From an uncultured Alphaproteobacteria bacterium (GTDB lineage: Bacteria; Pseudomonadota; Alphaproteobacteria; SP197), in NCBI GenBank assembly GCA_958295695.1, contig OY282363.1, positions 2,360,225 through 2,424,224 on the forward strand: DNA of 64,000 nt, written 5' to 3'. The translations under genes were made by a program, and so were the position numbers. Positions 7,685-50,292 of the stretch are shown here, one piece after another. Under the pieces are notes generated by a model, which was not told the DNA's origin, did no database searches, and saw only the letters and a program-made list of their open reading frames with translations. Numbering within the stretch: position 1 is the stretch's first letter; each line of letters starts with the position of its first letter.

Positions 7685-8815
7685 TCAACCCCGGACGAGG
7701 CGTCCGGGCGAGAACGTGTCCTTCGCGATCCCCATCGACGAGAGTCCCTCGGGCGGCGCGCGGTCCAGGATCGCCGCCGCCGCGTAGGCCGACAGCCCCG
7801 CCGAGGTCTGGATGCCGGCGCCGCCCTGGCCGACGTTCCAGAAGAACCCCTCCAGCGCCGGATCGAAGCCCGTCACGGGCAGACGGTCCGGAACGAAACT
7901 TCTCAAGCCGGCCCAGCGGCTCTCCATGCGGGCGATCTCCAGCGTCGTCCACGCCATGATGTTGTGGGCGGCCGTGGCGAGGTCGAGCTCCTCGGGCCGC
8001 GCGTCGCAGGGTTCGGACGGCGTTTCGTCGGCGAGCGAACCCATGATGAGTCCCGCGTCGGGCTTGAAGTAGAAGCTCTCGCCATCGTCGGCCGTGAGCG
8101 GCCATCCGCCGCAGTCGACCCCCTCGGGGCCGGCGAAACGGAAGGCGGTGCGGCGCATGGGCCGCAGGCCGACGGGGGTCGCGCCCGCCATCGCTCCCAG
8201 CGCGTCGCCCCAGGCACCGCAACAGTTGGCGACGACCGGCGCGCTGAACGCGCCCGCCTTCGTGTCGACCCGCCAGACGCCGTCCCGCCTGTCGAGGCCC
8301 AGGACCTCCGCGTCGCAGACCAGTTCGGCGCCGGCCCGGCGCGCGCCGCGCAGGTAGCCGCCGTGGATGGCGTGGACGTCGATGTCGCCGGCGGCGGGTT
8401 CCCACAGGCCGCTCTCGATCCTGTCCTCGCGCAGCACGGGACAGCGCGCCAGACAGGCCGCCGTGTCGATGGGATGGAGGACCGTGCCGATCAGATGCGC
8501 CAGCGCCTCCCGGTCGAAGTGCGGGTTCGCGGTGTCGCGGCCGATCAGCAGGAGGACGGGCCGGGGGTTGATGAGCGGCGTATCCGTGAAGCCCGCGGGC
8601 GGGTTGTCGATGAAACGGCGGGTTTCCCGCGACAGCGCCTGGATTTCGACACCGCCGATCGCGTCGGTGTAGTGCGCCGCCGAGCGTCCGGTGCTGTGGT
8701 AGCCGGGCCGCTCCTCGCGCTCGACCGTCACGACGCTGCGGTGGGGAGCGAGGCGGTAGGCCAGGGACGCGCCCACGGCGCCCGCTCCCACGACGATGAC
8801 GTCATGCTCCGACAC
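7685..8815 (-). CDS. FAD-dependent oxidoreductase, D-amino acid/glycine oxidase (DAO) family
   Basis: Flavoprotein of 376 residues that probably oxidises a C-N bond of an amino acid or amine. The N-terminal dinucleotide fold is IVVGAGAVGASLAYRL followed by an acidic residue in VVTVEREERPG. Then come STGRSAAHY, typical of DadA/SoxB/GlpD-like DAO proteins, and the C-terminal FWNVGQGGAGIQTSAG flavin motif. The start is a GTG at 8815, with AGGAGGG eight to fourteen bases upstream; the longer frame to 9136 crosses an intergenic repeat. It is convergent with the aminotransferase and divergent from the deacetylase operon. The substrate (D-arginine, glycine, hydroxy acid) cannot be fixed from sequence. 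Confidence 0.82.
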   Translation of the reverse strand: MSEHDVIVVGAGAVGASLAYRLAPHRSVVTVEREERPGYHSTGRSAAHYTDAIGGVEIQALSRETRRFIDNPPAGFTDTPLINPRPVLLLIGRDTANPHFDREALAHLIGTVLHPIDTAACLARCPVLREDRIESGLWEPAAGDIDVHAIHGGYLRGARRAGAELVCDAEVLGLDRRDGVWRVDTKAGAFSAPVVANCCGAWGDALGAMAGATPVGLRPMRRTAFRFAGPEGVDCGGWPLTADDGESFYFKPDAGLIMGSLADETPSEPCDARPEELDLATAAHNIMAWTTLEIARMESRWAGLRSFVPDRLPVTGFDPALEGFFWNVGQGGAGIQTSAGLSAYAAAAILDRAPPEGLSSMGIAKDTFSPGRLVRG

Positions 8816-8925
8816 GATGGTCCCTCCTTCCCGCGGAAAGCCGCGCCACACCTTCCGCCGGGTTCCGCCAACGGAACCATAGCACCGCCAGTCCTCCGAC
8901 GAGATACGGGGGGGAAACCCAAATT

Positions 8926-8974
8926 CTCCCCTCACCCCGAGGCGCGTCCCGCGGAGGCGCGTATCGAAGGGGCC
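8926..8974. repeat. Dispersed intergenic repeat, single arm
   Basis: CCCCTCACCCCGAG, a GC-rich stem (GGCGCGTCCCGCGGAGGCGC) and GTATCGAAGGGG match the family consensus described at 26255. The rest of the 319-base gap between divergent genes (8816-9134) holds no ORF I trust. A weak TTCGAT-17-TACACT promoter-like pair lies near 9005-9033, ahead of the deacetylase gene. Confidence 0.65.
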
Positions 8975-9134
8975 TGTCCGGGAACGGGAATGGCGGGAAC
9001 CCTTCGATTCGCCGGCGCCGGCGTGTACACTCGGCGACCACGAACGAGGCCCGGATCGGGTCCGGGCCGTCACGACGGCCAAAGCGGCGGGCCGAGCCCC
9101 ATGTCCGGCCGCGGAACTTTCCGGGACTGCGCGC

Positions 9135-10082
9135 ATGGCGACCCACTACTACACGCACGATGCATGCCTCGGTCACGACACCGGGCCCCATCACCCCGAA
9201 CGGACCGACCGGCTGCGTTCGGTCCGCGACATCCTTGCCGGCGACGCCTTCGACGGCCTCGTGCGAATGTCCGCGCCGAGAGCCGGGCGCGACCGGCTGG
9301 CGCTGGCGCATCCGGCCGCCCATGTCGACGCCGTGCTGGACGCGGTTCCGGACGAAGGCCATCGACGCCTCGACCCGGACACCGTCGTGTCGCCGGGCTC
9401 CGGCGAGGCGGCCCTGCGCGCCTCGGGCGCGCTGGTGGCCGCCGTCGACGCGGTCGTCGGGGGCGAGGCGGACAACGCCTTCTGCGCGGTGCGCCCGCCC
9501 GGCCATCACGCCGAGCCGGGACGCGCCATGGGCTTCTGCCTCTTCAACTCCGTCGCCGTCGGCGCCGGGCACGCCCGCGAACGCCATGGCCTGGCGCGCG
9601 CCGCGGTCGTCGATTTCGACGTGCATCACGGCAACGGGACCCAGGCCATGTTCTGGGACGACGAAGGTCTCTTCTACGCCTCCACGCACCAGTATCCCCA
9701 CTATCCCGGCACCGGCGCGGCCGACGAGACCGGCCGGTACGGCAACATCGTCAACGCGCCGCTGGCGCCCGGTTCGGGGAGCGAGAGCTTCCGCGCGGCC
9801 TTCGAGCGCGTCGTGATTCCCGCGCTCGACGGGTTCCGCCCCGAGATCGTTCTCGTCTCGGCGGGGTTCGACGCCCACGAGCGCGACCCGCTCGCCCAGA
9901 TCAACCTGGTCGAGGAGGACTACGCCTGGGCGACCGACCGGCTCCTGTCGGTGGCCGACGTCCACGCGGGCGGACGCGTTGTCTCCGTCCTCGAAGGGGG
10001 GTATGACCTGACCGCGCTCGCAGCCAGCGTCGCGGCCCATGTGTCGCGCCTGATGGCGGCGGGAAACGTGGAGCAGCGATGA
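9135..10082 (+). CDS. Histone-deacetylase-like amidohydrolase
   Basis: Zinc amidohydrolase of the HDAC / acetylpolyamine amidohydrolase superfamily (315 residues). The catalytic His pair is in RPPGHHAEPG, zinc ligands are in VVDFDVHHGNGTQ and the third ligand aspartate is in VSAGFDAHERDPL; HPERTDRL near the N-terminus is typical. Bacterial members deacetylate acetyl-polyamines or protein lysines, and substrates are often unknown. Its stop overlaps the xseB start by four bases (ATGA), so it is the first gene of the isoprenoid operon and probably translationally coupled. This order is common in alphaproteobacteria. Confidence 0.88.
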   Translation: MATHYYTHDACLGHDTGPHHPERTDRLRSVRDILAGDAFDGLVRMSAPRAGRDRLALAHPAAHVDAVLDAVPDEGHRRLDPDTVVSPGSGEAALRASGALVAAVDAVVGGEADNAFCAVRPPGHHAEPGRAMGFCLFNSVAVGAGHARERHGLARAAVVDFDVHHGNGTQAMFWDDEGLFYASTHQYPHYPGTGAADETGRYGNIVNAPLAPGSGSESFRAAFERVVIPALDGFRPEIVLVSAGFDAHERDPLAQINLVEEDYAWATDRLLSVADVHAGGRVVSVLEGGYDLTALAASVAAHVSRLMAAGNVEQR

Positions 10083-36334: not shown

Positions 36335-37780
36335 TCAGGCCACGTCCGGCATCGGGGTGTAGGCGAGGCCGCCGCCGGCCGCCGCGTCGCTCAGCGCGAT
36401 GGCGCGCCCGCCCAGGGCGGCGATCCTGCGCGCCTGGTCGGCGAAGCAGCGGGCGTTGGCCTCCTCGTAGTCGACGACGCCGCGCAGCCTGGAGTCGCAG
36501 GCCGCGACCGTGGCGGCGTGGGCCGGATCGCCCGCGAGGTCGCGGGCCTCGACCGGGTCCGCCGCCATGTCGAAGAGCTGCGGCGGGTAGCCGGGATAGG
36601 CGATGTACTTCCAGTCCCTCCAGCGCAGCATGAACATGCCGGCGATCGCGCCGATCTCGTGATACTCGCTGATGACGGCCCTGTCGCCGTGGCCGCCCCG
36701 CGCCAGCTCCTGCAGGGCGACGCCGGGCAGTCCGGCGGCGGCGGGATCGTCCAGGCCGTGCGCCCCGAGCACGGTCTGATGAAGGTCGACATGGGAGGCG
36801 GGGTCGTCGCACACGACGCCCTCGGGCATGCCGGGGCCCGCCGCGATCAGCGGGATGGCCGAGGCTTCCTCGTACATGTTCATCTTGGCCCACATGCCGT
36901 GGTTGCCCAGCATCTCGCCGTGGTCGCTGGTGTAGATCACGAGCGTGTCGCGGGCCTGGCCCGAGGCCTCCAGCGCGTCGAGCACGAGGCCGACGTGACG
37001 GTCGAGGAAGGAGACGTAGGCGTAGTAGCTCAGCCTGGCCTCGCGGATGTGCTCGTCGTCGCGGAAATGGCGGTCGTAGTCCCAGACCCTGTTCCGGACA
37101 TCGAGCACGGGGTGCCTCGGCCGCTCGCCGGCGTCCCGCAGGCGCGGCATGTCGATCGCGTCCCGGTCGTAGAGGTCGTGGAACGCGCCCGGCGCGACGA
37201 TCGGGTGGTGGGGCGCGACGAAGGACGAGAACAGCGTCCAGGGCCGGCCGAGCCCGGGCGCCGTCTCGCGCAGCCAGGCGCAGGTCAGCTCGCAGACCTT
37301 GCGGTCGTAGAGCGTGTAGCGGGATTCGCCCCGGCCGATCTCGGTCGCGAAGTCCGCGTTGCTGGGATAGGGCTCCTCGGAATCCCGCACCATGCTCGAG
37401 GTGAAGCCGACGCCGTTCAGCACATGGACGGGAACGATCTCCTCGGAGAACCCGTTGTCGTCCTCGGTCGAGCGGAAGTGGAGCTTGCCGATGGAGACCG
37501 AGGCCCGGCCCTCGTCCCGCAACCGGTGGCCCCAGCCGCGGATCGCGCCGTCGTAGGGTTCCGCGCTCGACCAGCAGCCGTGCCGGTGGACCCAGCGCCC
37601 GGTCTGCATGCTGGCGCGCGTCGCGACGCAGCAGGGATCGGCGCAATAGGCCCGCGTGAAGAGCGCGCCGCGCGCCGCCAGCCGGTCCATGTTGGGCGTC
37701 TTCACCAGCGGATGGCCGTAGCAGCCCGCCGCGTCGCGCCAGTGCTGGTCGGAGCAGACGATGAGGACATTGTGGGCCAT
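36335..37780 (-). CDS. Sulfatase, choline-sulfatase-like
   Basis: Sulfuric-ester hydrolase of the alkaline-phosphatase superfamily, 481 residues, no signal peptide (cytoplasmic, as for choline sulfatase BetC). The calcium site begins IVCSDQHWRD, and the formylglycine motif is C51-V-A-T-R in PCCVATRASMQTGRW, a CxAxR variant of the usual CxPxR. GKLHF (catalytic Lys/His) and YTSDHGEMLGNHG complete the site. Maturation needs a formylglycine-generating enzyme, not in the window. It is divergent from the TMADH-like gene. Choline-O-sulfate fits the betaine/amine theme but is an inference. Confidence 0.85.
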   Translation of the reverse strand: MAHNVLIVCSDQHWRDAAGCYGHPLVKTPNMDRLAARGALFTRAYCADPCCVATRASMQTGRWVHRHGCWSSAEPYDGAIRGWGHRLRDEGRASVSIGKLHFRSTEDDNGFSEEIVPVHVLNGVGFTSSMVRDSEEPYPSNADFATEIGRGESRYTLYDRKVCELTCAWLRETAPGLGRPWTLFSSFVAPHHPIVAPGAFHDLYDRDAIDMPRLRDAGERPRHPVLDVRNRVWDYDRHFRDDEHIREARLSYYAYVSFLDRHVGLVLDALEASGQARDTLVIYTSDHGEMLGNHGMWAKMNMYEEASAIPLIAAGPGMPEGVVCDDPASHVDLHQTVLGAHGLDDPAAAGLPGVALQELARGGHGDRAVISEYHEIGAIAGMFMLRWRDWKYIAYPGYPPQLFDMAADPVEARDLAGDPAHAATVAACDSRLRGVVDYEEANARCFADQARRIAALGGRAIALSDAAAGGGLAYTPMPDVA

Positions 37781-38240: not shown

Positions 38241-40310
38241 ATGGCGCGAGACCCGCGCTACGACATCCTCTTCGAGCCGGTGCGAATCGGCCCGGTGACG
38301 GCGAGGAACCGGTTCTACCAGGTTCCCCACTGCAACGGCATGGGGCGCAAGCATCCCACGGCCATGGCGGCGATGCGGGGCGTCAAGGCGGAGGGCGGCT
38401 GGGCCGTGGTGTGCACCGAGCAGTGCGACATCCACGTCACCTCCGACACCGAGCGCGAGATCAGGCTGTGGGACGACCGCGACATCCCTCCCCTCGCGCG
38501 CATGGTCGACCGGGTGCACGGGCGCGGCGCGCTGGCGGGGCTGGAGCCGACCCACATGGGCTACCACGCCGGCAACTTCATCGGCCGCGAGATTCCCATG
38601 GCGCCCTCCGGCAGGCCGGCCCACGGCATCCTGCCCTTCCACGCCCGCGCGATGGACAAGACCGACATCGCCGACTACCGGCGCTGGCACCGCAACGCCG
38701 TCATCCGCGGCAAGAAGGCGGGCTTCGACATCATCTATGTCTACGCCGGCCACGGCCTGTCGCTGCCGATGCACTTCCTGTCGCCGCGCCACAACCGCCG
38801 CGCGGACGAATACGGCGGACGGGTGGAGAACCGCGTCAGGCTCCTGCGCGAGGTGATCGAGGACACGAAGGAGGCGGTGGGCGACGCCTGCGGCGTCGCC
38901 GTGCGTCTGGCGGTCAACGAACTCCTGGGCCCCCGGGGCATCACGCCCGACGAGGAAGGCCGCGCCGCGATCGAGATGCTGGGCGAGCTGCCGGACCTGT
39001 GGGACGTGAACGTCAGCGAGTGGGAGAACGACAGCGAGTCCAGCCGCTTCGCCGAGGAGGGCTATCAGGAAGAGCACATCGCCTTCGTCAAGTCGCGCAC
39101 CACCAAGCCCGTCGTCGGCGTGGGCCGCTACACCAGCCCCGACCGCATGGTCTCGCTGGTGAGGAACGGCGTGCTCGACATGATCGGCGCGGCCCGGCCC
39201 TCGATCGCCGATCCCTTCCTGCCCCGGAAGATCGAGGAGGGCCGGATCGACGACATCCGGGAGTGCATCGGCTGCAACGTCTGCGTCGGCACCGCGAACC
39301 AGAACACCTACATGCGCTGCACCCAGAACCCGACCATGAGCGAGGAGTGGCGGCGCGGCTGGCACCCCGAGACGATCCCGCCCGCCGACACCGACGACCG
39401 CATCCTCGTGGTCGGCGCCGGGCCCGCGGGCCTCGAGGCGGCGCGCGCGCTGGGCCAGCGCGGCTACGACGTGACGCTGGCCGAGGCGGGCGCGGAACTC
39501 GGTGGCCGGGTCGCGCGCGAAAGCCGTCTTCCGGGGCTCGCCGCCTGGGGCCGGGTGCGCGACTGGCGCGTCGGCCAGCTCCGCAAGCTGCCCAACGTCG
39601 AGATCTTCATGGCGTCGGAGATGACCGCCGACACCGTGCGCGAGACCGGCGCCGGCATGGTCGCGCTGGCGACCGGCGCGGTCTGGCGGCGCGACGGCAG
39701 CGGCCGCTATCACGATTTTCCGCTTCCCGGCGCGGCGGCCCAGGCCCGCCGCGTCCTCACGCCCGACGACATCATGGCGGGCGCGGAGCCGGAAGGGCCG
39801 GTCGCGGTCTACGACGACGACCACTACTACATGGGCGGCGCGATCGCCGAGAAGCTGGCGCGCGACGGCCATGCCGTGAGCCTCGTGACGCCGGCGCGCG
39901 CGGTCTCCTCCTGGACCGAGTTCACCCTGGAGATCGACCGCATCCAGACCCGCATGCGGGAGCTCGGCGTCACCCTCCACCTGTCCCATGCGGTGACCCG
40001 GATCGACGAACGCGAGGTGGAGATCGAGGACATGTACTCGCGCCGCGCGGCGCGGATCGAGGCCGGCGCGGTGGTGATGGTGACGGCCCAGGACCCGGTC
40101 GACGGCCTCTACCGCGACCTGATGGCCGACGAGGACGCCAACCGGAAGGCCGGCATCCGCCGCGTCTCGCGCATCGGCGACTGCTACGGCCCCGGCCCCA
40201 TCGCCGCGGCCGTGTTCGGCGGCTACCGCTACGCCCGCGAACTGGGCGAGGCCATCGGCGACGGCTGCCCCTGGAAACGGGAGACGGTCGAACTCGCCGC
40301 GGAGGTCTGA
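38241..40310 (+). CDS. Trimethylamine/dimethylamine dehydrogenase family flavoprotein
   Basis: 689 residues: an Old-Yellow-Enzyme-type FMN barrel, a 4Fe-4S cluster and C-terminal nucleotide folds. The opening MARDPRYDILFEPVRIGP and FYQVPHCNGMG follow TMADH closely, and the cysteine that carries 6-S-cysteinyl-FMN there (Cys30) is kept. The cluster cysteines are C342-IG-C-NV-C and C360. The proton-relay Tyr and His (VYAGH) and the catalytic Asp in SEWENDSESSRF are kept. The trimethylamine cage is mostly lost: positions of Tyr60, Trp105 and Trp355 appear as Gln, Thr and a non-aromatic residue; Trp264 remains. A secondary or tertiary amine other than trimethylamine is therefore likely. GGGAGG precedes the ATG. 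Confidence 0.88.
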   Translation: MARDPRYDILFEPVRIGPVTARNRFYQVPHCNGMGRKHPTAMAAMRGVKAEGGWAVVCTEQCDIHVTSDTEREIRLWDDRDIPPLARMVDRVHGRGALAGLEPTHMGYHAGNFIGREIPMAPSGRPAHGILPFHARAMDKTDIADYRRWHRNAVIRGKKAGFDIIYVYAGHGLSLPMHFLSPRHNRRADEYGGRVENRVRLLREVIEDTKEAVGDACGVAVRLAVNELLGPRGITPDEEGRAAIEMLGELPDLWDVNVSEWENDSESSRFAEEGYQEEHIAFVKSRTTKPVVGVGRYTSPDRMVSLVRNGVLDMIGAARPSIADPFLPRKIEEGRIDDIRECIGCNVCVGTANQNTYMRCTQNPTMSEEWRRGWHPETIPPADTDDRILVVGAGPAGLEAARALGQRGYDVTLAEAGAELGGRVARESRLPGLAAWGRVRDWRVGQLRKLPNVEIFMASEMTADTVRETGAGMVALATGAVWRRDGSGRYHDFPLPGAAAQARRVLTPDDIMAGAEPEGPVAVYDDDHYYMGGAIAEKLARDGHAVSLVTPARAVSSWTEFTLEIDRIQTRMRELGVTLHLSHAVTRIDEREVEIEDMYSRRAARIEAGAVVMVTAQDPVDGLYRDLMADEDANRKAGIRRVSRIGDCYGPGPIAAAVFGGYRYARELGEAIGDGCPWKRETVELAAEV

Positions 40311-41266: not shown

Positions 41267-41427
41267 GTCACAACCCCCACGAATGTCCGCGAGAGGAACC
41301 CGGAGACGGAACGCTCCCGCCACGGCGGAGCTTTCCCGGCGAAATCGACGCCGGGCCGGTTGAGCGACCCCGGGGCCCGCCTGTATGCATGCCTACACGA
41401 CCGGCCGGGACGCGGACAATTCCGAAC

Positions 41428-42927
41428 ATGACCGACCTGCCGCGGCAAACCGACGTGCTCGTGATCGGCGCGGGCAACGCCGCCTTCGCCGCGGCGCACG
41501 CCGCGCGCGAGCACGGCCGCCGCGTCACCGTGCTGGAACGCGCGGCGGAGGCGGAGGCGGGCGGCAACACCCGCTTCACGGCGGGCGCCATGCGCTTCGC
41601 GTACCGCGGCGTCGACGACCTGACGGCCCTGATGCCCGACCTCTCCGAGGAAGAGCTGGCGATCACCGACTTCGGCGCCTACGCGGAAGACCGGTTCTTC
41701 GACGACATGGGCCGGGTCACCGAGTACCGCACCGATCCCGACCTCTGCGAGCTCCTGGTCGCCCGGAGCCGCGAGACCGTGATGTGGATGCGGTCGAAAG
41801 GCGTCCGCTTCGCGCCGATCTACGGACGCCAGGCCTTCAAGGTCGGCGGACGTTTCACGTTCTGGGGCGGGCTCACGGTCGAAGTCCACGGCGGCGGGCC
41901 GGGCCTGCTCGAAGCCTGGACGAACGCCGCCGCCCGCGAGGGTATCGAGGTCGTCTACCGGGCCCGGGCCGACAGCCTGATCGTCGACGACGGCCGCGTC
42001 GCCGGCGCGATGGTGCGCCGCGGCGGCGTCACGGTTCCCGTCCGCGCGCGCGGCGTCGTCCTCGCCTGCGGCGGCTTCGAGGCCAATCCCGAATGGCGCG
42101 CGCGCTATCTGGGGCCCGGCTGGGAGCTCGCCAAGGTGCGCGGCAGCCGGTTCAACACCGGCGAGGGCATCCGCATGGCGCTCGATATCGGCGCGGCGCC
42201 TTACGGCAACTGGTCCGGTTGCCACGCCGTGGGCTGGGAGCGCAACGCGCCGGAGTTCGGCGACCTTTCGGTCGGCGACCACTTCCAGAAGCACAGCTAC
42301 CCCTGGGGCGTCATGCTGAACGCCCGGGGCGAGCGCTTCGTCGACGAAGGCGCCGACTTCCGCAACTACACCTACGCCAAATACGGCCGACTGATCCTCG
42401 AACAGCCGGGCCAGTTCGCCTGGCAGGTGTTCGACGCCAAGGTCGCGGACCTCCTGAGACCCGAATACCGCATCAGGCAAGTCACGAAGGTCCGCGCCGA
42501 CACGCTGGAAGACCTCTGCGCCGGGCTGGAGGACATGGACTCCGAACGCGCGCTCGAGACCGTCGGGGCCTACAACGCGGCGGTCCGCGCCGACATCCCG
42601 TTCGACCCGAACGTCAAGGACGGCCGCCGGACGGAAGGGCTCGCGGTCGCGAAGTCGAACTGGGCCAACACGATCGACACGCCGCCCTTCGAGGCCTACG
42701 CCGTGACCTGCGGCATCACCTTCACCTTCGGAGGCCTGCGGATCGACACCCAGGCGCGGGTGCTCGACCGCGACCTCGAACCGATTCCGGGGCTCCACGC
42801 CGCGGGAGAGCTCGTCGGCGGCCTCTTCTACTTCAACTATCCGGGCGGGACCGGCCTCATGTCGGGGTCGGTCTTCGGCCGCCTCGCCGGGGACACGGCC
42901 GGGAAACGGGCGTCCGGCCCCGGGTGA
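41428..42927 (+). CDS. tcuA: FAD-dependent tricarballylate dehydrogenase-like protein
   Basis: 499-residue flavoprotein of the fumarate-reductase/succinate-dehydrogenase-like group. The FAD fold is VLVIGAGNAAFAAAHAAREH with GGNTRFTAGAMRF. Catalytic-domain landmarks are VLACGGFEANPEWR, YAVTCGITFTFGGLRID and GELVGGLFYFNYPGGTGLMSG. The pattern fits TcuA, which oxidises tricarballylate to cis-aconitate, but no tcuB or tcuC is adjacent, so another dicarboxylic or keto-steroid-like substrate is possible. The ATG at 41428 is chosen over 41389 because the dinucleotide fold begins soon after. Confidence 0.8.
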   Translation: MTDLPRQTDVLVIGAGNAAFAAAHAAREHGRRVTVLERAAEAEAGGNTRFTAGAMRFAYRGVDDLTALMPDLSEEELAITDFGAYAEDRFFDDMGRVTEYRTDPDLCELLVARSRETVMWMRSKGVRFAPIYGRQAFKVGGRFTFWGGLTVEVHGGGPGLLEAWTNAAAREGIEVVYRARADSLIVDDGRVAGAMVRRGGVTVPVRARGVVLACGGFEANPEWRARYLGPGWELAKVRGSRFNTGEGIRMALDIGAAPYGNWSGCHAVGWERNAPEFGDLSVGDHFQKHSYPWGVMLNARGERFVDEGADFRNYTYAKYGRLILEQPGQFAWQVFDAKVADLLRPEYRIRQVTKVRADTLEDLCAGLEDMDSERALETVGAYNAAVRADIPFDPNVKDGRRTEGLAVAKSNWANTIDTPPFEAYAVTCGITFTFGGLRIDTQARVLDRDLEPIPGLHAAGELVGGLFYFNYPGGTGLMSGSVFGRLAGDTAGKRASGPG

Positions 42928-43015: not shown

Positions 43016-44176
43016 ATGAGCCAGCCCATCCTCGCGGTCTCGCGCCGCACGCGCCGCACGCCGCTCTCCCCGAGGGTCGAGGCCCACGGCGTCAAGGGCT
43101 ACACCGTCTACAACCACATGCTGCTGGCGACCGCCTTCCGTTCGTTCGAGGAGGACTACCGCCACCTCAAGCGCCATGTGCAGGTCTGGGATGTCGTCTG
43201 CGAGCGCCAGGTCGAGATCGCCGGGCCGGACGCCGGGCGCCTCGTCCAGTTCATGACGCCCCGCGACATGGGCGGGGTCGCCGTCGGACAATGCGCCTAC
43301 GCCCCGTTCGTCGACGAGAACGGCGGCATGATCAACGATCCGGTCGTGCTGAAGCTCGCCGACGACCGTTTCTGGGTGTCGGTCGCCGATTCCGACGTGG
43401 TGCTCTGGTCCAAGGGCCTCGCCCGCGGCATGGGGCTCGACGTGTCCGTCTTCGAACCCGAGGTCGGACCGCTGGCCGTCCAGGGCCCCAGGGCCGACGA
43501 CCTCGCCGCCCGCGTCTTCGGCGAGGATGTGCGCGCCATCCGGTTTTTCCGCTTCGCGCGCCTGCCGTTCCAGGGACGCGAGCTGGTCGTCGCGCGGTCG
43601 GGCTGGTCGAAGCAGGGCGGCTTCGAAATCTACATCGACGACGCCGACAACGGCCTCGCCCTCTACGACGCGCTCTTCGCGGCCGGCGCCGACCTCGACG
43701 TGCGGCCGGGATGCCCCAACCTGATCGAGCGCATCGAAGGCGGGCTCCTCTCCTACGGCAACGACATGACGATCGGGAACGATCCGTTCGAATGCGCGCT
43801 CGACCGCTACTGCCACCTGGACGCGGACACGGACTTCATCGGGCGCGCCGCGCTGGAGGCGATTCGCGACGCGGGCGGGCCCGGACGCGCCGTCCGGGGC
43901 GTGACGTTCGAGGGCGAAACCTGTCCCGCCTGCGTCGAAGCCTGGCCCGTCGCCGCGGGCGGCGCCCACGCGGGATACCTGACCTCGGCCGCCCGCTCGC
44001 CCGACCTCGGCGTCAACATCGGCCTCGCGATGATCGAGCGGGACCGCTGGGAGCCCGGGACCGCCGTGACGGTCGAGACGCCGGAGGGCGCGAGAGCGGG
44101 CGCCGTGACCGGACTGCCGTTCATCGAGCCGCGCCCGCGGAGCGTTCAGGCGAGCAGCGCCTCCTCGAAGGGATAG
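43016..44176 (+). CDS. dmdA: DMSP demethylase DmdA-like, GcvT family
   Basis: 386-residue tetrahydrofolate-dependent methyltransferase-fold protein. In marine bacteria DmdA moves a methyl group of dimethylsulfoniopropionate to THF, giving methylmercaptopropionate. Stretches I remember from characterised DmdA are SRRTRRTPLSPRVEAHGVKG, YTVYNHMLL, HVQVWDVVCERQVEI, RSGWSKQGGFEIYI and CPNLIERIEGGLLSYGND. Plain GcvT proteins lack the RSGWSKQGG and ERIEGGLLSYGND combination. Its 3' end overlaps the convergent DddP-like gene by 31 bases. Close paralogues with untested substrates exist, so function needs confirmation. The ATG at 43016 is chosen at the start of similarity. Confidence 0.75.
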   Translation: MSQPILAVSRRTRRTPLSPRVEAHGVKGYTVYNHMLLATAFRSFEEDYRHLKRHVQVWDVVCERQVEIAGPDAGRLVQFMTPRDMGGVAVGQCAYAPFVDENGGMINDPVVLKLADDRFWVSVADSDVVLWSKGLARGMGLDVSVFEPEVGPLAVQGPRADDLAARVFGEDVRAIRFFRFARLPFQGRELVVARSGWSKQGGFEIYIDDADNGLALYDALFAAGADLDVRPGCPNLIERIEGGLLSYGNDMTIGNDPFECALDRYCHLDADTDFIGRAALEAIRDAGGPGRAVRGVTFEGETCPACVEAWPVAAGGAHAGYLTSAARSPDLGVNIGLAMIERDRWEPGTAVTVETPEGARAGAVTGLPFIEPRPRSVQASSASSKG

Positions 44177-45366
44177 GACGTCAGCAGTTCGCAGCCGTCC
44201 GCCTTGACCAGCACCATCTGCTCCAGCTTCGCGCCCGGTCCGCCCCGGTCCGAACCGCAGTAGCTCTCGACGCAAAGCGTCATGTTCTCCTCGATCAGAC
44301 CGTCGTAGGCGCCGTTGTCGCGGTCCTGGCGGTGGTGGAGCTTGGGATACTCGTCGGACATGCCGATGCCGTGACAGGGCGTCGGATAGCGCCGGGCGAT
44401 GAGATGTCCGGGTTGCCGGTAGGCCTTCTCCATGAACTCGAAGAAGGTCACGCCGGGCCGCACCAGACCGATGTTGTGACGCACCTCGTCATGGGCGCGG
44501 CGGTAGACGTCGCGCTGCTCGGCGGTCGGCTCGGCCGGACCACAGAGCCACGTGCGCGAGATGTCGGCGCAGTAGCCGAACGGGCCGATCATGTCGGTGT
44601 CGAAGGCCACGAAGTCGCCCGCCTCGATCGCCCGGCCGGTCGCCTCCTGAAGCCATGGATTCGTGCGCGGTCCCGAGCAGAGCATGCGGCCCTCGAACCA
44701 GTCGCCGTCGTGGGCGGCGTTGACCTGATGCATGATCGACCACAGCTCGGTCTCCCCGATCCCCGGCTCCATCGCCTCGCGCATGCGCGCCATGCCGAGT
44801 TCCGCGACCGCGATGGAGTGGCGCATGCAGCGGATTTCCTCGCCGGACTTGATCGAGCGCGCCCTCTCCACCACCGGTTCCGCATCGACAGGCTCCAGGC
44901 CGGCCCGCAGCATGGCCAGGGCGGCGCTGGGATTGAGCATCTCGACCGCCACCCCGCGCTCTCCCGGAAGACCGAGTTCGGCGAGGAAATCCCTCGCCGC
45001 GGCGGCGAGCGCCCGGGCATGGCCGGAAAGGTCCAGGCCGCCCTCGAAGGTGTTGAGCTTCGCGGCCGGGCGATAGTCGTCGACACCGTCGTAGTCCCGC
45101 CGCGAGGCCCCGAACAGGACGACGGGACCTTCCGCCGGCACGAAGAGGTACATGGCGGGAATGTGGGACTGGAAGCCCTGATACTCCCGGCAGTCGACCG
45201 CGTAACGCAGGCTGATGGGGTTGACGAGCACGCAGAACGCGACGCCGCGTTCCCGGAGGAGGCCGCGAATGCGCCCGAGCCGGTAGGCCCGCAACGCCTG
45301 GAGGTCGATCTCCGGCTTGTCGATGACTGCGCGATAGGGCGGAAGGCCCGATTCCGTGACGGTCAT
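44146..45366 (-). CDS. dddP: DMSP lyase DddP-like, M24 creatinase fold
   Basis: 406 residues of the M24 peptidase/creatinase fold. DddP proteins of this fold cleave DMSP to dimethyl sulfide and acrylate instead of hydrolysing peptides. The metal set is complete: Asp256, Asp258 (FDTDMIG), Asp268 (CADISRTW), His332 (CHGIG), Glu367 (CVESY) and Glu382 (KLEQMV). The segment FEGRMLCSGPRTNPWLQE and the aspartate after the metal His (GMSDEY, proposed catalytic base in DddP) match remembered DddP sequences better than prolidases. It sits tail-to-tail with the DmdA-like gene. Alternatives are creatinase or a DddP-like paralogue with another betaine substrate. Confidence 0.68.
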   Translation of the reverse strand: MTVTESGLPPYRAVIDKPEIDLQALRAYRLGRIRGLLRERGVAFCVLVNPISLRYAVDCREYQGFQSHIPAMYLFVPAEGPVVLFGASRRDYDGVDDYRPAAKLNTFEGGLDLSGHARALAAAARDFLAELGLPGERGVAVEMLNPSAALAMLRAGLEPVDAEPVVERARSIKSGEEIRCMRHSIAVAELGMARMREAMEPGIGETELWSIMHQVNAAHDGDWFEGRMLCSGPRTNPWLQEATGRAIEAGDFVAFDTDMIGPFGYCADISRTWLCGPAEPTAEQRDVYRRAHDEVRHNIGLVRPGVTFFEFMEKAYRQPGHLIARRYPTPCHGIGMSDEYPKLHHRQDRDNGAYDGLIEENMTLCVESYCGSDRGGPGAKLEQMVLVKADGCELLTSYPFEEALLA

Positions 45367-45416: not shown

Positions 45417-46721
45417 TCAGCGCTCGGCGATGTCGGCCATGTGGCGCCGGATGTGGCGCCGGCCGATCAGGCCGCGGAGCGGTTCGGGCGGCATCCAGCG
45501 GGGCGCCGGAATCCGCCGCTGGTCGTCCAGCAGGTCCGAGTCCCGGCCGACGATGAGATCGGCGAGCAAGGTGCCCGCCATGGCGCCGCGCGACACTCCC
45601 GCGCCGTTGCAGCCGATCGAAGCCCACAGGCCGTCGCCGATGGCGCCGAAGATGTGGCCTTCGTTCCGCGTGATGGCGACACACCCGCCCCAGGTGTGCT
45701 CGATGTCGATGCCCGCGATCGCGGGCCAGCGCTTGCGGATCGAGTCCGCGTGATTCAGCCGCATCTCCGCGAGCCGCTCCCGGTCGGAAGTGTCGCCGGG
45801 TCCGTATCCCAGCGTGTTGCGGATCAGCAGCCGGCCGTCCGGCGCGCGCTGGATGGTCGAGCCGCCCGTGGCCGCTGGAAGAAGGCCGAAACCGCGCCGG
45901 TCGCCACCGACGGCGTCCCGCTCGCCGGGCGTCATCGGCCGGGTCAGGCTGGCGTAGACGACCAGCGGCGCCATCGCCGACCGGGCCACGCCGATGGACG
46001 GCGAAAAGACGTTGGTCGCCAGGAGGACGTTGTCGGCGACCACCTCGCCGGCGGGCGTCTCCAGCCTGTGCGGGCGTCCCCCGCGATGGCGCAGCACGGG
46101 CGATTCCTCGTAGAGGGCGACGTTGGCCGGCAGCGCGTCCGCGAGGCCCCGGCACAGGGCCGCGGGATTGACGAGCGCGGCGCCCTCGACCTTCAGGCCG
46201 CCGCTGTAGAAGCGCGTGCCGGCGACCGCCTCGACGCCGTCGCGGTCGAGGGTCTCGCAGGGGATGCCGAGCGCGTCGTTGCCCTGGCGCTGGCGAACCA
46301 GCCCCCGCTCCCCGCCGGGTCCGGCGGCGACCCAGAGCTTGCCCCAGTCATGCCAGTGGCAGTCGATCCGGTTCTCCCGCGCCAGCGTTTCGAGGATGTC
46401 CCGGCCTCCGGCGCACAGCCGGGTCCGCGCCCGGGCGAGATCCAGGTCCGGAAACGGGAGCTGCTGGGGCATGAAGTGGGAGTCCAGGACGAAGCCGGAG
46501 TTGCGGCCGGACGTGCCGAAGCCCACCCGTTCGGCCTCGATCAGCGCGACAGGATCGTCCGGCCGGTGGCCGGCGAGCCGGCGAGCCGCCGAAAGCCCCG
46601 TGAAGCCGGCACCGACCACCGCCCAGGGCGCGCGCACCGCGCCCGAAACGCGCCGCGCGGGCGGCGGCGCGGGAAGGATGTTGTACCAGCCGTTGGTGGC
46701 TGCGTTCGCCGGCGGTTTCAA
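45417..46721 (-). CDS. FAD-dependent amine oxidoreductase, PuuB-like (1)
   Basis: 434-residue DAO-family flavoprotein beginning NGWYNILPAPPP, an N-terminal pattern of gamma-glutamylputrescine oxidase-like enzymes. The FAD fold is AVVGAGFTGLSAARRL with an acidic residue in ALIEAERVGFGTSGRNSGF. The C-terminal flavin region is GCNGAGVSRGAMAGTLLADL. The only start in frame after the upstream stop is a TTG at 46721, which is unusual. It lies 50 bases before the DddP-like gene on the same strand and could be co-transcribed. Substrate: an amine or glutamyl-amine is likely but unproven. Confidence 0.78.
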   Translation of the reverse strand: MKPPANAATNGWYNILPAPPPARRVSGAVRAPWAVVGAGFTGLSAARRLAGHRPDDPVALIEAERVGFGTSGRNSGFVLDSHFMPQQLPFPDLDLARARTRLCAGGRDILETLARENRIDCHWHDWGKLWVAAGPGGERGLVRQRQGNDALGIPCETLDRDGVEAVAGTRFYSGGLKVEGAALVNPAALCRGLADALPANVALYEESPVLRHRGGRPHRLETPAGEVVADNVLLATNVFSPSIGVARSAMAPLVVYASLTRPMTPGERDAVGGDRRGFGLLPAATGGSTIQRAPDGRLLIRNTLGYGPGDTSDRERLAEMRLNHADSIRKRWPAIAGIDIEHTWGGCVAITRNEGHIFGAIGDGLWASIGCNGAGVSRGAMAGTLLADLIVGRDSDLLDDQRRIPAPRWMPPEPLRGLIGRRHIRRHMADIAER

Positions 46722-46963: not shown

Positions 46964-48268
46964 CTAGCCGCGCATCGTCCTCCGGTCCCGCCACTTGAGC
47001 CAGGCGACGACCAGCGGCAGGAACCAGGGGTCGCCCGTGTAGAAGGGCCACGTGGGGAAACGCCGGTTGTCGAGCGGGGTCGCGGCGTCGGGGTCGCCGA
47101 CGATCCGGAGCGCGGTCTTGTGGCCCAGGTAGGTGCCCATGGGAACGCCCGACGCGCACCATCCCATGGCGTAGTGCAGGCCGTCGTGGACGCCGGCGTG
47201 CGGCAGCATGTCGAAGCTGAAGGCGACCTTGCCGGTCCAGCAGTGGGTCAGCTTCACGCCGTCGAGATCGGGCGCCACGGCGGTCATCTCGCGGTAGAGA
47301 TGGCCGGCCTTGTCGCGGAGCGAGGCGAGGTCCTCGCCGGTCGTCCCGCCGAACAGGATGCGCGCGCCGTCCTCGTTCGGCCGGATCCAGCGCGGCGTGT
47401 CGCGGTTCTCGATCATCGGCCGGCCGCTGGGCAGCACCTTCGCCATCAATCCGGGCGGGAGCGCCTCGGTGGCGACCATGTAGGCCGAGACCGGCACCAC
47501 CCTGCGCCGCTGCCAGGGCAGGGCCCTGGGCGTGTAGCCGTTCGTGGCGACGAACGCCTCCTTCGCCGCGACCGCGCCCCTGGGCGTCGCGACCCTGAAT
47601 CCGTTCCGCTCCCGCTCCACCGCCGTGACCGGGCAGAACCCGACCACCGCGGCGCCCTCGCCGCGCACCCGCTCGAGCAGGCCCCGGTGATAGAGGCCGG
47701 CGTGGATGACGCCGTTGCCGCGCAGGATCTGCCCGCCGCGGTAGAGGCCGCTTCCGACCTCGCCGCGCTGGCGTTCGGGGCCGATCATCTCGGCGTCGAC
47801 CGGAACGCCGTCGGCGATCATCATCTCGAGATCCTTCTCGAGCTTGTCGTAGGCGCGCTTCGAGGGCGCGGCGATGAACCGGCCGGTGTCGCGGTGGAAG
47901 CAGGCGATCTGTTCGTCGCGGATGAGGCCCGCGGCGTAGTCGTGCGCCTCCACGGCCACGCCGGCGAGGGCGCCGGCCCGTTCGCGGCCGACCGCCTTCG
48001 CCATGTCGCCGTACTTGAACCAGAGGCCCCGGCCCAGATAGCCGGCGTTCCGCGTGCTGGCGCCGTGACCGGCGGCCTCCGCGTCCAGCACGACCACATC
48101 GCGTCCGCGGCGGGCCAGGGTGAGGGCGCAGGACAGCCCGGCGTTGCCGGAGCCGATCACGACCGCGTCCGCCTTTTCGGGCGGCGTCCGGTCGTCCGGC
48201 TCCGCGCGCGGCGCGAGGTCCCACCAGTAGGGCGTCTCCTTGTAGCCCTCGGCAAAGATGTCGGCCAT
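46964..48268 (-). CDS. FAD-dependent amine oxidoreductase, PuuB-like (2)
   Basis: 434 residues, DAO family, with YKETPYWWDLAP at the N-terminus, AVVIGSGNAGLSCALTLARR as FAD fold and HGASTRNAGYLGRGLWFKYG after it; the C-terminal LPHAGVHDGLHYAMGWCASG closes the flavin site. It is the same length and family as the oxidoreductase upstream but not a recent duplicate by sequence. GGGGAGGCGAGG precedes the ATG at 48268; the longer frame to 48484 lies in the divergent promoter region. It probably oxidises an amine or N-methyl group. Confidence 0.8.
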   Translation of the reverse strand: MADIFAEGYKETPYWWDLAPRAEPDDRTPPEKADAVVIGSGNAGLSCALTLARRGRDVVVLDAEAAGHGASTRNAGYLGRGLWFKYGDMAKAVGRERAGALAGVAVEAHDYAAGLIRDEQIACFHRDTGRFIAAPSKRAYDKLEKDLEMMIADGVPVDAEMIGPERQRGEVGSGLYRGGQILRGNGVIHAGLYHRGLLERVRGEGAAVVGFCPVTAVERERNGFRVATPRGAVAAKEAFVATNGYTPRALPWQRRRVVPVSAYMVATEALPPGLMAKVLPSGRPMIENRDTPRWIRPNEDGARILFGGTTGEDLASLRDKAGHLYREMTAVAPDLDGVKLTHCWTGKVAFSFDMLPHAGVHDGLHYAMGWCASGVPMGTYLGHKTALRIVGDPDAATPLDNRRFPTWPFYTGDPWFLPLVVAWLKWRDRRTMRG

Positions 48269-48393
48269 GGCCTCGCCTCCCCTTCCCCGACCGACGCCAA
48301 CGACACGGCCAGCGCGACGCACTCGACGGAACCGCGTCCGGTTACTATACTCGAAAGCATTATCCGCCACGCCCGTAGGCGGGCGCCGTATGC

Positions 48394-48606: not shown

Positions 48607-50264
48607 ATGCTGCAAGGCCGGATGATGGATCGGCCGCTGCTGATCATCGACATCCTGAAGCACGCCGCCGACGCCTTCCCGGCCGTCGAGGTCGTCTCGC
48701 GCACGGTCGAGGGGCCGGTGCACCGCTACGGCTACGCGGACGCCTACAGGCGCGTCGCGCGACTGGCCCATGCGCTGAAGCAGCTCGGCGTCGAGGAAGG
48801 CGACAGGGTCGCCACCGTCGCCTGGAACACATACCGGCACTTCGAGCTCTACTACGGCGTCTCCGGCGTCGGCGCGGTCTGCCACACGATCAATCCGCGG
48901 CTGTTCGAGGACCAGCTCGAGTACATCGTCAACCATGCCGGCGACCGGGCGGTCTTCGTCGACGCCGACCTCGTGCCGCTGGCCGAGAAGATGGCCGCCC
49001 GTTTCGGTTGCGTGGAGCACTGGGTCGTCATGACCGACCGGGAGCGCATGCCCGAGACGACGCTGCCCGGCGCGCTCTGCTACGAGGAGCTCCTGGCGGA
49101 CAAGCCGGAGACCTACGACTGGCCGGAGCTCGACGAACGGGCCGCGGCCGCCATGTGCTACACGTCCGGCACGACGGGCAACCCGAAGGGGGCGCTCTAT
49201 CATCACCGCTCGACCGTCCTGCACGCCCTGGGGCTCCTGGCGGCGGGCGTCGTTCCCCTCCGCCAGGGTTCGGTCGTGATGCCGGCGGTGCCGATGTTCC
49301 ACGTCCAGGCCTGGGGCCAGCCCTACGCGGCGCCGATCGCGGGCGCGAAGATCGTCCTGCCCGGCCGGAAGCTCGACGGCGGGAGCCTCCGGGAGCTGAT
49401 GGAAGCCGAGGGCGTGACGGTGACGCTGGGCGTGCCGACCGTCTGGCTCGGCCTCCTCGCCCACCTGCGCGAGACCGGCGGGACGCTCACCACGCTGAAG
49501 CACCTGATGTCCGGCGGGTCCGCCGCCCCCGTCTCGATGGTCCGGGCCTACGAGGAGGAGTTCGGCGTCGCCGTCAGCCAGGGCTGGGGCATGACCGAGA
49601 CGAGCCCGGTCTGCGCCTGCGGCGCCGACGGCCCGCGAATGGACGCCGCCCGGGGCGACGCGCGCTACGCGCTCAAGCTGAAGCAGCGGCGCCTCTTCGG
49701 CGTCGAGTTCCGCCTGGTCGGCGACGACGGCGAGCCCGCGCCCCTCGACGGCGAGAGCCAGGGCGAGCTGCAGTGCCGGGGGCCGTGGGTCGTCGGCGGC
49801 TACTACGACGACGAGGCCGCCACCGCCGACGCGATGACCGGCGACGGCTGGTTCCGGACCGGCGACGTCGCGTCGATCGACGGCGAGGCGATGCTCCAGA
49901 TCGCCGACCGCACCAAGGACCTCATCAAGTCCGGCGGCGAATGGATCAGCTCGATCGACCTCGAGAACGAGGCGATGAGCCACCCCGAGGTCGCGGAGGC
50001 CGCCGCGATCGCCATGCCGCATCCCAGGTGGCAGGAGCGCCCGATGCTCGTGGTCGCGCCGCGCAAGGGCGCGAGCCCCACGGCCGACGACATCCGCGGC
50101 CATCTCGAGGGCCGGGTCGCCAGGTGGTGGATGCCCGACGACATCGTCTTCGTCGACGAGCTGCCGCACACCGCCACCGGCAAGGTCTCCAAGCTGCGGC
50201 TGCGCGAGCGCTTCGGGAACCGTGTCCCGCCGGCGGCCCGAACCCTCCCGAGCGAGACGGAACC

Positions 50265-50292
<28 letters not shown>
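48607..50292 (+). CDS. Acyl-CoA ligase, DmdB/FadD-like
   Basis: AMP-forming CoA ligase of 561 residues. The P-loop-like motif is [17 protein letters not shown] (about residue 183), with [23 protein letters not shown] and the C-terminal catalytic lysine in [12 protein letters not shown]-terminal [19 protein letters not shown] is shared with the clade holding 3-methylmercaptopropionyl-CoA ligase DmdB and medium-chain ligases; LvaE-type ligases are another possibility. It overlaps the following acyl-CoA dehydrogenase gene by 28 bases. With a DmdA-like gene 4 kb away a DMSP role is attractive, but the downstream genes fit general or 4-hydroxy-acid oxidation equally well. Confidence 0.82.

Follow-up and report, generated by a model that had tools for sequence, protein, structure and literature searches.

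The genome of an uncultured alphaproteobacterium holds two convergent genes that share their last 31 bases, one encoding what is very probably a true marine DMSP demethylase, DmdA (ORF A), and the other a protein of the M24/creatinase fold that only resembles the DMSP lyase DddP (ORF B). We consider it likely that ORF A is a genuine DmdA, that ORF B belongs to a separate M24 branch acting on some other substrate, and that the overlap is passive. The locus contributes a further DmdA, encoded by an uncultured lineage that is Rhodospirillaceae-like. Both proteins are ordinary enzymes, and the lesson that they hold is that the residue set used to recognize DddP is not specific. The pair lies in a stretch of 64,000 nucleotides, referred to here as the window.

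Layout of the convergent pair

The features of the pair are as follows.

43016..44176, + strand: ORF A, very probably DMSP demethylase DmdA, 386 aa; NF009133 555 bits, DmdA clade
44146..45366, - strand: ORF B, DddP-like M24/creatinase-fold protein, not DddP proper, 406 aa; NF043017 279 bits
44146..44176: 31-base 3' overlap of ORF A and ORF B, containing both stop codons
44126..44176, + strand: DmdA C-terminal tail, 16 residues followed by the stop, lacking in relatives and overlapping ORF B at its end

Both frames are open at these coordinates and have exactly 31 bases in common. The convergent arrangement and its overlap had been claimed in a preliminary description of this DNA, and the shared stretch, 44146-44176, bears that out. 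Eleven other family genomes encode relatives of ORF A, at 55 to 75% identity, and for ORF B a single ortholog, 74% identical, was found in family genome G009; both are therefore real genes and not chance reading frames. A search of the window against Rfam gave no matches.

ORF A groups with DmdA

ORF A scored 555 bits against the NCBIfam DmdA equivalog NF009133, above the cutoff of 410, and it alone exceeded that cutoff among the 15 GcvT-family matches in the 3.45-Mb genome. It is 46% identical to the DmdA of P. ubique, for which a structure has been solved (3TFH). The hallmark segments SGWSKQGG.E.Y and PGCPNLIERIE..L.SYGND, which the preliminary description had also noted, are both present. 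Residues W171, E178, and Y180 of DmdA have been tied to DMSP and folate binding (PMC7487153); assigned by spacing, they correspond to W197, E204, and Y206 of ORF A, all of which are kept.

Eighty DmdA loci were kept for comparison. The nearest three, at 67 to 74% identity to ORF A, are all from MAGs, one of a Rhodospirillaceae bacterium and two of alphaproteobacteria, and most of the others, including those of Ruegeria, Phaeobacter, and Roseovarius, are 55 to 61% identical. The GcvT-like paralogs in the family genomes are only 39 to 44% identical to ORF A. In a maximum-likelihood tree, in which Ruegeria was represented by DmdA sequences other than that of R. pomeroyi, ORF A fell inside the DmdA clade and apart from the GcvT-like paralogs, the branch separating the two being 1.08 changes per column long with support of 97/93. 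ORF A was closer to the Roseobacter group in this tree than P. ubique DmdA is. One paralog on a very long branch (L007) was misplaced within the DmdA clade, an artefact that is to be discounted. Two DmdA-like genes at 58 to 59% identity to ORF A were seen on contigs labeled Ilumatobacter and Nitriliruptorales (L073 and L103, Actinomycetota MAGs), and they possibly reflect transfer or binning error.

ORF B lies outside the DddP clade

The M24-type fold of ORF B is clear from its sequence and would not distinguish DddP from its relatives. The Pfam domains are Peptidase_M24 and Creatinase_N, the best PDB matches are DddP structures (about 1e-65), peptidases match at 1e-12 or worse, and creatinase is a weak sequence match. 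Against the DddP equivalog NF043017, ORF B scored 279 bits and did not reach the cutoff of 600. It ranked fourth in its own genome for that model; the three others, at 405 to 416 bits, likewise failed, and no gene in the window's genome exceeded the cutoff, in a family whose genomes carry several DddP-like M24 genes. The identity of ORF B to RdDddP and RlDddP is 32 to 33%.

A tree of 77 M24 proteins, from which the fungal FgDddP was left out, contained a DddP clade of 24 rows (support, 100/99) that takes in both solved DddPs, a protein from Oceanisphaera carrying the DddP annotation, and every one of the 12 sequences over the cutoff, with ORF B outside it. Forcing ORF B and its ortholog into the clade was 144 log-likelihood units worse (AU p 1.4e-62), for a DddP group defined after the tree had been seen. 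The preliminary description had proposed phylogeny as a check on both identities. The demethylase came through it, ORF A grouping with DmdA and not with the GcvT-like paralogs; the lyase did not.

The full set of DddP metal ligands, which had been offered as evidence for a lyase, is indeed present. ORF B carries the six metal ligands and the equivalents of Tyr366 and Asp377, the residue set described for DddP (PMC4108388). What fell away is their weight as an identifier, since the same eight residues are kept in 58 to 60 of 60 non-DddP relatives (97 to 100%), rhizobial and Pseudomonas ones included. A set that is near universal in the wider M24 subfamily is therefore not diagnostic of DddP and is unfit for calling it, and surveys accepting such DddP-like matches would overcount DMS producers. 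DddP sequences have 139 conserved positions, 55 of which are changed in ORF B; one of these, Trp95 in the N-terminal domain, invariant in 15/15 DddP sequences, is Phe in ORF B. Two observations count against excluding a DddP role: every residue proposed for DddP catalysis is kept, and ORF B, at 32 to 33% identity, is not more distant from RdDddP than is FgDddP, a fungal enzyme reported to release DMS from DMSP and 32% identical to RdDddP (PMC4108388). From sequence and tree together, ORF B lies outside the tested DddP clade, and identity as DddP is not supported.

Four further DddP-like M24 genes were seen in the window's own genome (G000), at contig 1 loci L009, L010, and L013 (1529703-1530869, 1598724-1601139, and 1540252-1541157). 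Two of these extra genes lie in tandem, with an FAD/GcvT fusion of 811 residues about 2.4 kb upstream of them, and a TGA interrupts one extra copy. Related genomes carry 2 to 8 DddP-like M24 genes each.

The pairing is confined to one genome of the family

The family search covered 16 genomes, and a search at the level of the order gave the same 16. DmdA of this type occurs in 12 of them, and a close M24 relative adjoins it only in the window's genome; none of the 11 others (0/11) has one beside the demethylase gene. The closest approach among these was in G007, where the DmdA and M24 genes lie about 15 kb apart on the same contig. In G009, the ORF B ortholog is on a different contig from DmdA. 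There it converges tail to tail on another DddP-like M24 gene, separated from it by a few bases (L154; contig 450, 2-1090 and 1096-2265). Outside the family, a Deltaproteobacteria contig (L125) carries, at 1290 (-) and 8517-9617 (+), a DmdA gene and a DddP-like M24 gene, the latter 42% identical, about 6 kb apart and nonoverlapping.

The DmdA proteins of relatives end directly after the LPF(I/V) of the domain, with different genes next to them; in G007, a convergent 604-residue ORF lies 1 base away. The window's DmdA has an extra 16-residue tail that extends into ORF B and is absent from relatives. With a tail that relatives lack and a pairing seen in one genome, we read the overlap as incidental, and on these comparisons it is best read as a probable lineage-specific by-product.

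Surrounding genes and the relatives of ORF B

The genes flanking the pair make up an osmolyte-rich region.

36338-37780: choline-sulfatase-like gene, 281 bits, cutoff 433, same osmolyte-rich region
38241..40310, + strand: trimethylamine/histamine dehydrogenase family flavoprotein; 3K30 (histamine dehydrogenase) 798 bits, TMADH 565 bits
40481..41266, - strand: PhnX, phosphonoacetaldehyde hydrolase; TIGR01422 316 bits versus 220
41389..42927, + strand: TcuA-like FAD dehydrogenase, upstream of DmdA; NF006130 586 bits versus 369
45417..46721, - strand: DAO1, FAD-dependent amine oxidase-like, Pfam DAO; directly upstream of ORF B, gap about 50 bp
46964..48277, - strand: DAO2, second FAD-dependent amine oxidase-like, Pfam DAO
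48625..50292, + strand: DmdB-like acyl-CoA ligase; NF005426 729 bits, below cutoff 822; PDB 6IHK 523 bits
50265..51518, + strand: acyl-CoA dehydrogenase, ACAD11 type

The gene order PhnX-TcuA-DmdA is conserved in G008 and G009. The DmdB-like ligase gene is the genome's sole such match at E<=1e-100, and its position about 4.5 kb from the genome's only DmdA fits the demethylation route; no DmdB-like gene was seen near DmdA in the relatives' loci compared. DAO1 has orthologs in 5 genus members, none of which has an M24 neighbor beside it. ORF B and DAO1 might conceivably form an operon like that of creatinase and sarcosine oxidase, but their adjacency is not conserved in relatives.

The closest plasmid relatives of ORF B, from Mesorhizobium (47 to 50%) and Pseudomonas sp. 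MPC6 (51%), are labeled Xaa-Pro peptidase family proteins by NCBI. Within about 9 kb of them are betaine/proline/choline ABC transporters, and further genes nearby encode trimethylamine-methyltransferase (MttB)-like proteins, SDRs, and a tautomerase. Other relatives adjoin Rieske oxygenases, a beta-keto acid cleavage enzyme (BKACE), or a run of M20, SDR, and glyoxalase genes plus a second M24. These neighborhoods point to betaine or methylated-amine catabolism rather than to DMSP, and by analogy with relatives at 43 to 52% identity they suggest such a role for ORF B. A broader idea, that the wider M24 subfamily consists of onium lyases/hydrolases for nitrogen betaines, with DddP as its sulfur-specialized branch and M24 DMSP cleavage derived from betaine chemistry, is speculative and rather unlikely.

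Alternative readings of the locus

The preliminary description held that two fates of DMSP, demethylation and cleavage, are encoded convergently, and half of that stands: DmdA is convincing by score, tree, and motifs. The other half would require ORF B to be a true DddP-type lyase competing for the same substrate. DddP structures being the top PDB matches of ORF B and the presence of all the metal ligands and Tyr366/Asp377 equivalents speak for this. Yet the score is below half of the DddP cutoff, the protein falls outside the clade, the hallmark residues are common to about 60 non-DddP relatives, the nearest plasmid relatives come from soil and other non-DMSP settings, and the DmdA/M24 pair is not conserved. 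With ORF B outside the clade and the pair in this genome alone, two competing DMSP fates are not supported, and we hold them to be quite improbable. ORF B could instead be a conventional member of M24, a Xaa-Pro peptidase or creatinase that plays no part in osmolyte metabolism, as its Pfam domains and the NCBI name of its plasmid relatives would have it; but DddP matches it far better than any peptidase does, and the Asp297/Tyr366/Asp377 set is complete in ORF B but not in the genome's two M24 outgroup proteins. We regard this as unlikely.

The overlap had also been proposed to allow antisense interplay, which would make it a functional switch between ORF A and ORF B. It is real, and convergent transcripts could collide there, but one family genome only has the arrangement and the DmdA tail is not conserved. 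Short convergent overlaps are, moreover, common in bacteria. A switch is thus not supported and seems extremely improbable.

Predicted functions and comparison with known systems

In the reading that we prefer, of a genuine DmdA beside an M24 protein with another substrate, ORF A would demethylate DMSP, with tetrahydrofolate as the methyl acceptor, to methylmercaptopropionate, which could then be converted to its CoA thioester by the DmdB-like ligase encoded about 4.5 kb further downstream, both steps being predicted from family membership. ORF B would represent a separate branch of the broad M24 subfamily that shares the DddP metal site and the proposed Tyr/Asp pair. Its most likely substrate would be a different small osmolyte, either an onium compound or an N-methylated one; betaines and derivatives of N-methyl amino acids are examples. 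Judging from the gene neighborhoods, it may catalyze one step in a methylated-amine catabolic route, perhaps including the neighboring amine oxidase. The tail-to-tail pair presumably arose once ORF B had become positioned behind dmdA in this lineage, and the dmdA frame, running past the stop position of its relatives, would end 31 bases inside ORF B as a passive overprint and not as regulation.

Compared with known DmdA proteins (P. ubique 3TFH and Ruegeria DmdA), ORF A has the same domain layout, the Trp197/Glu204/Tyr206 motif, and the GCPNLIERIE segment, but it differs in its 16-residue C-terminal tail and in its host, an uncultured Rhodospirillaceae-like alphaproteobacterium as judged by nearest relatives. 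ORF B shares with DddP (RdDddP 4B28 and RlDddP 4RZY) the fold family, all six metal ligands, and counterparts of Tyr366 and Asp377, and departs from it in identity (32 to 33%), score (279 versus 600 bits), placement outside the clade, 55/139 changed positions, and Trp95 to Phe. The M24 proteins of rhizobia and of Pseudomonas plasmids named as Xaa-Pro peptidase family are closer, at 43 to 52% identity with the same eight residues and with betaine/amine genes nearby; ORF B differs in lying beside dmdA and amine oxidases. As in the pairing of creatinase with sarcosine oxidase, an M24-fold enzyme here adjoins a DAO-type amine oxidase; unlike that system, ORF B is a weak match to creatinase and its adjacency to DAO1 is not conserved.
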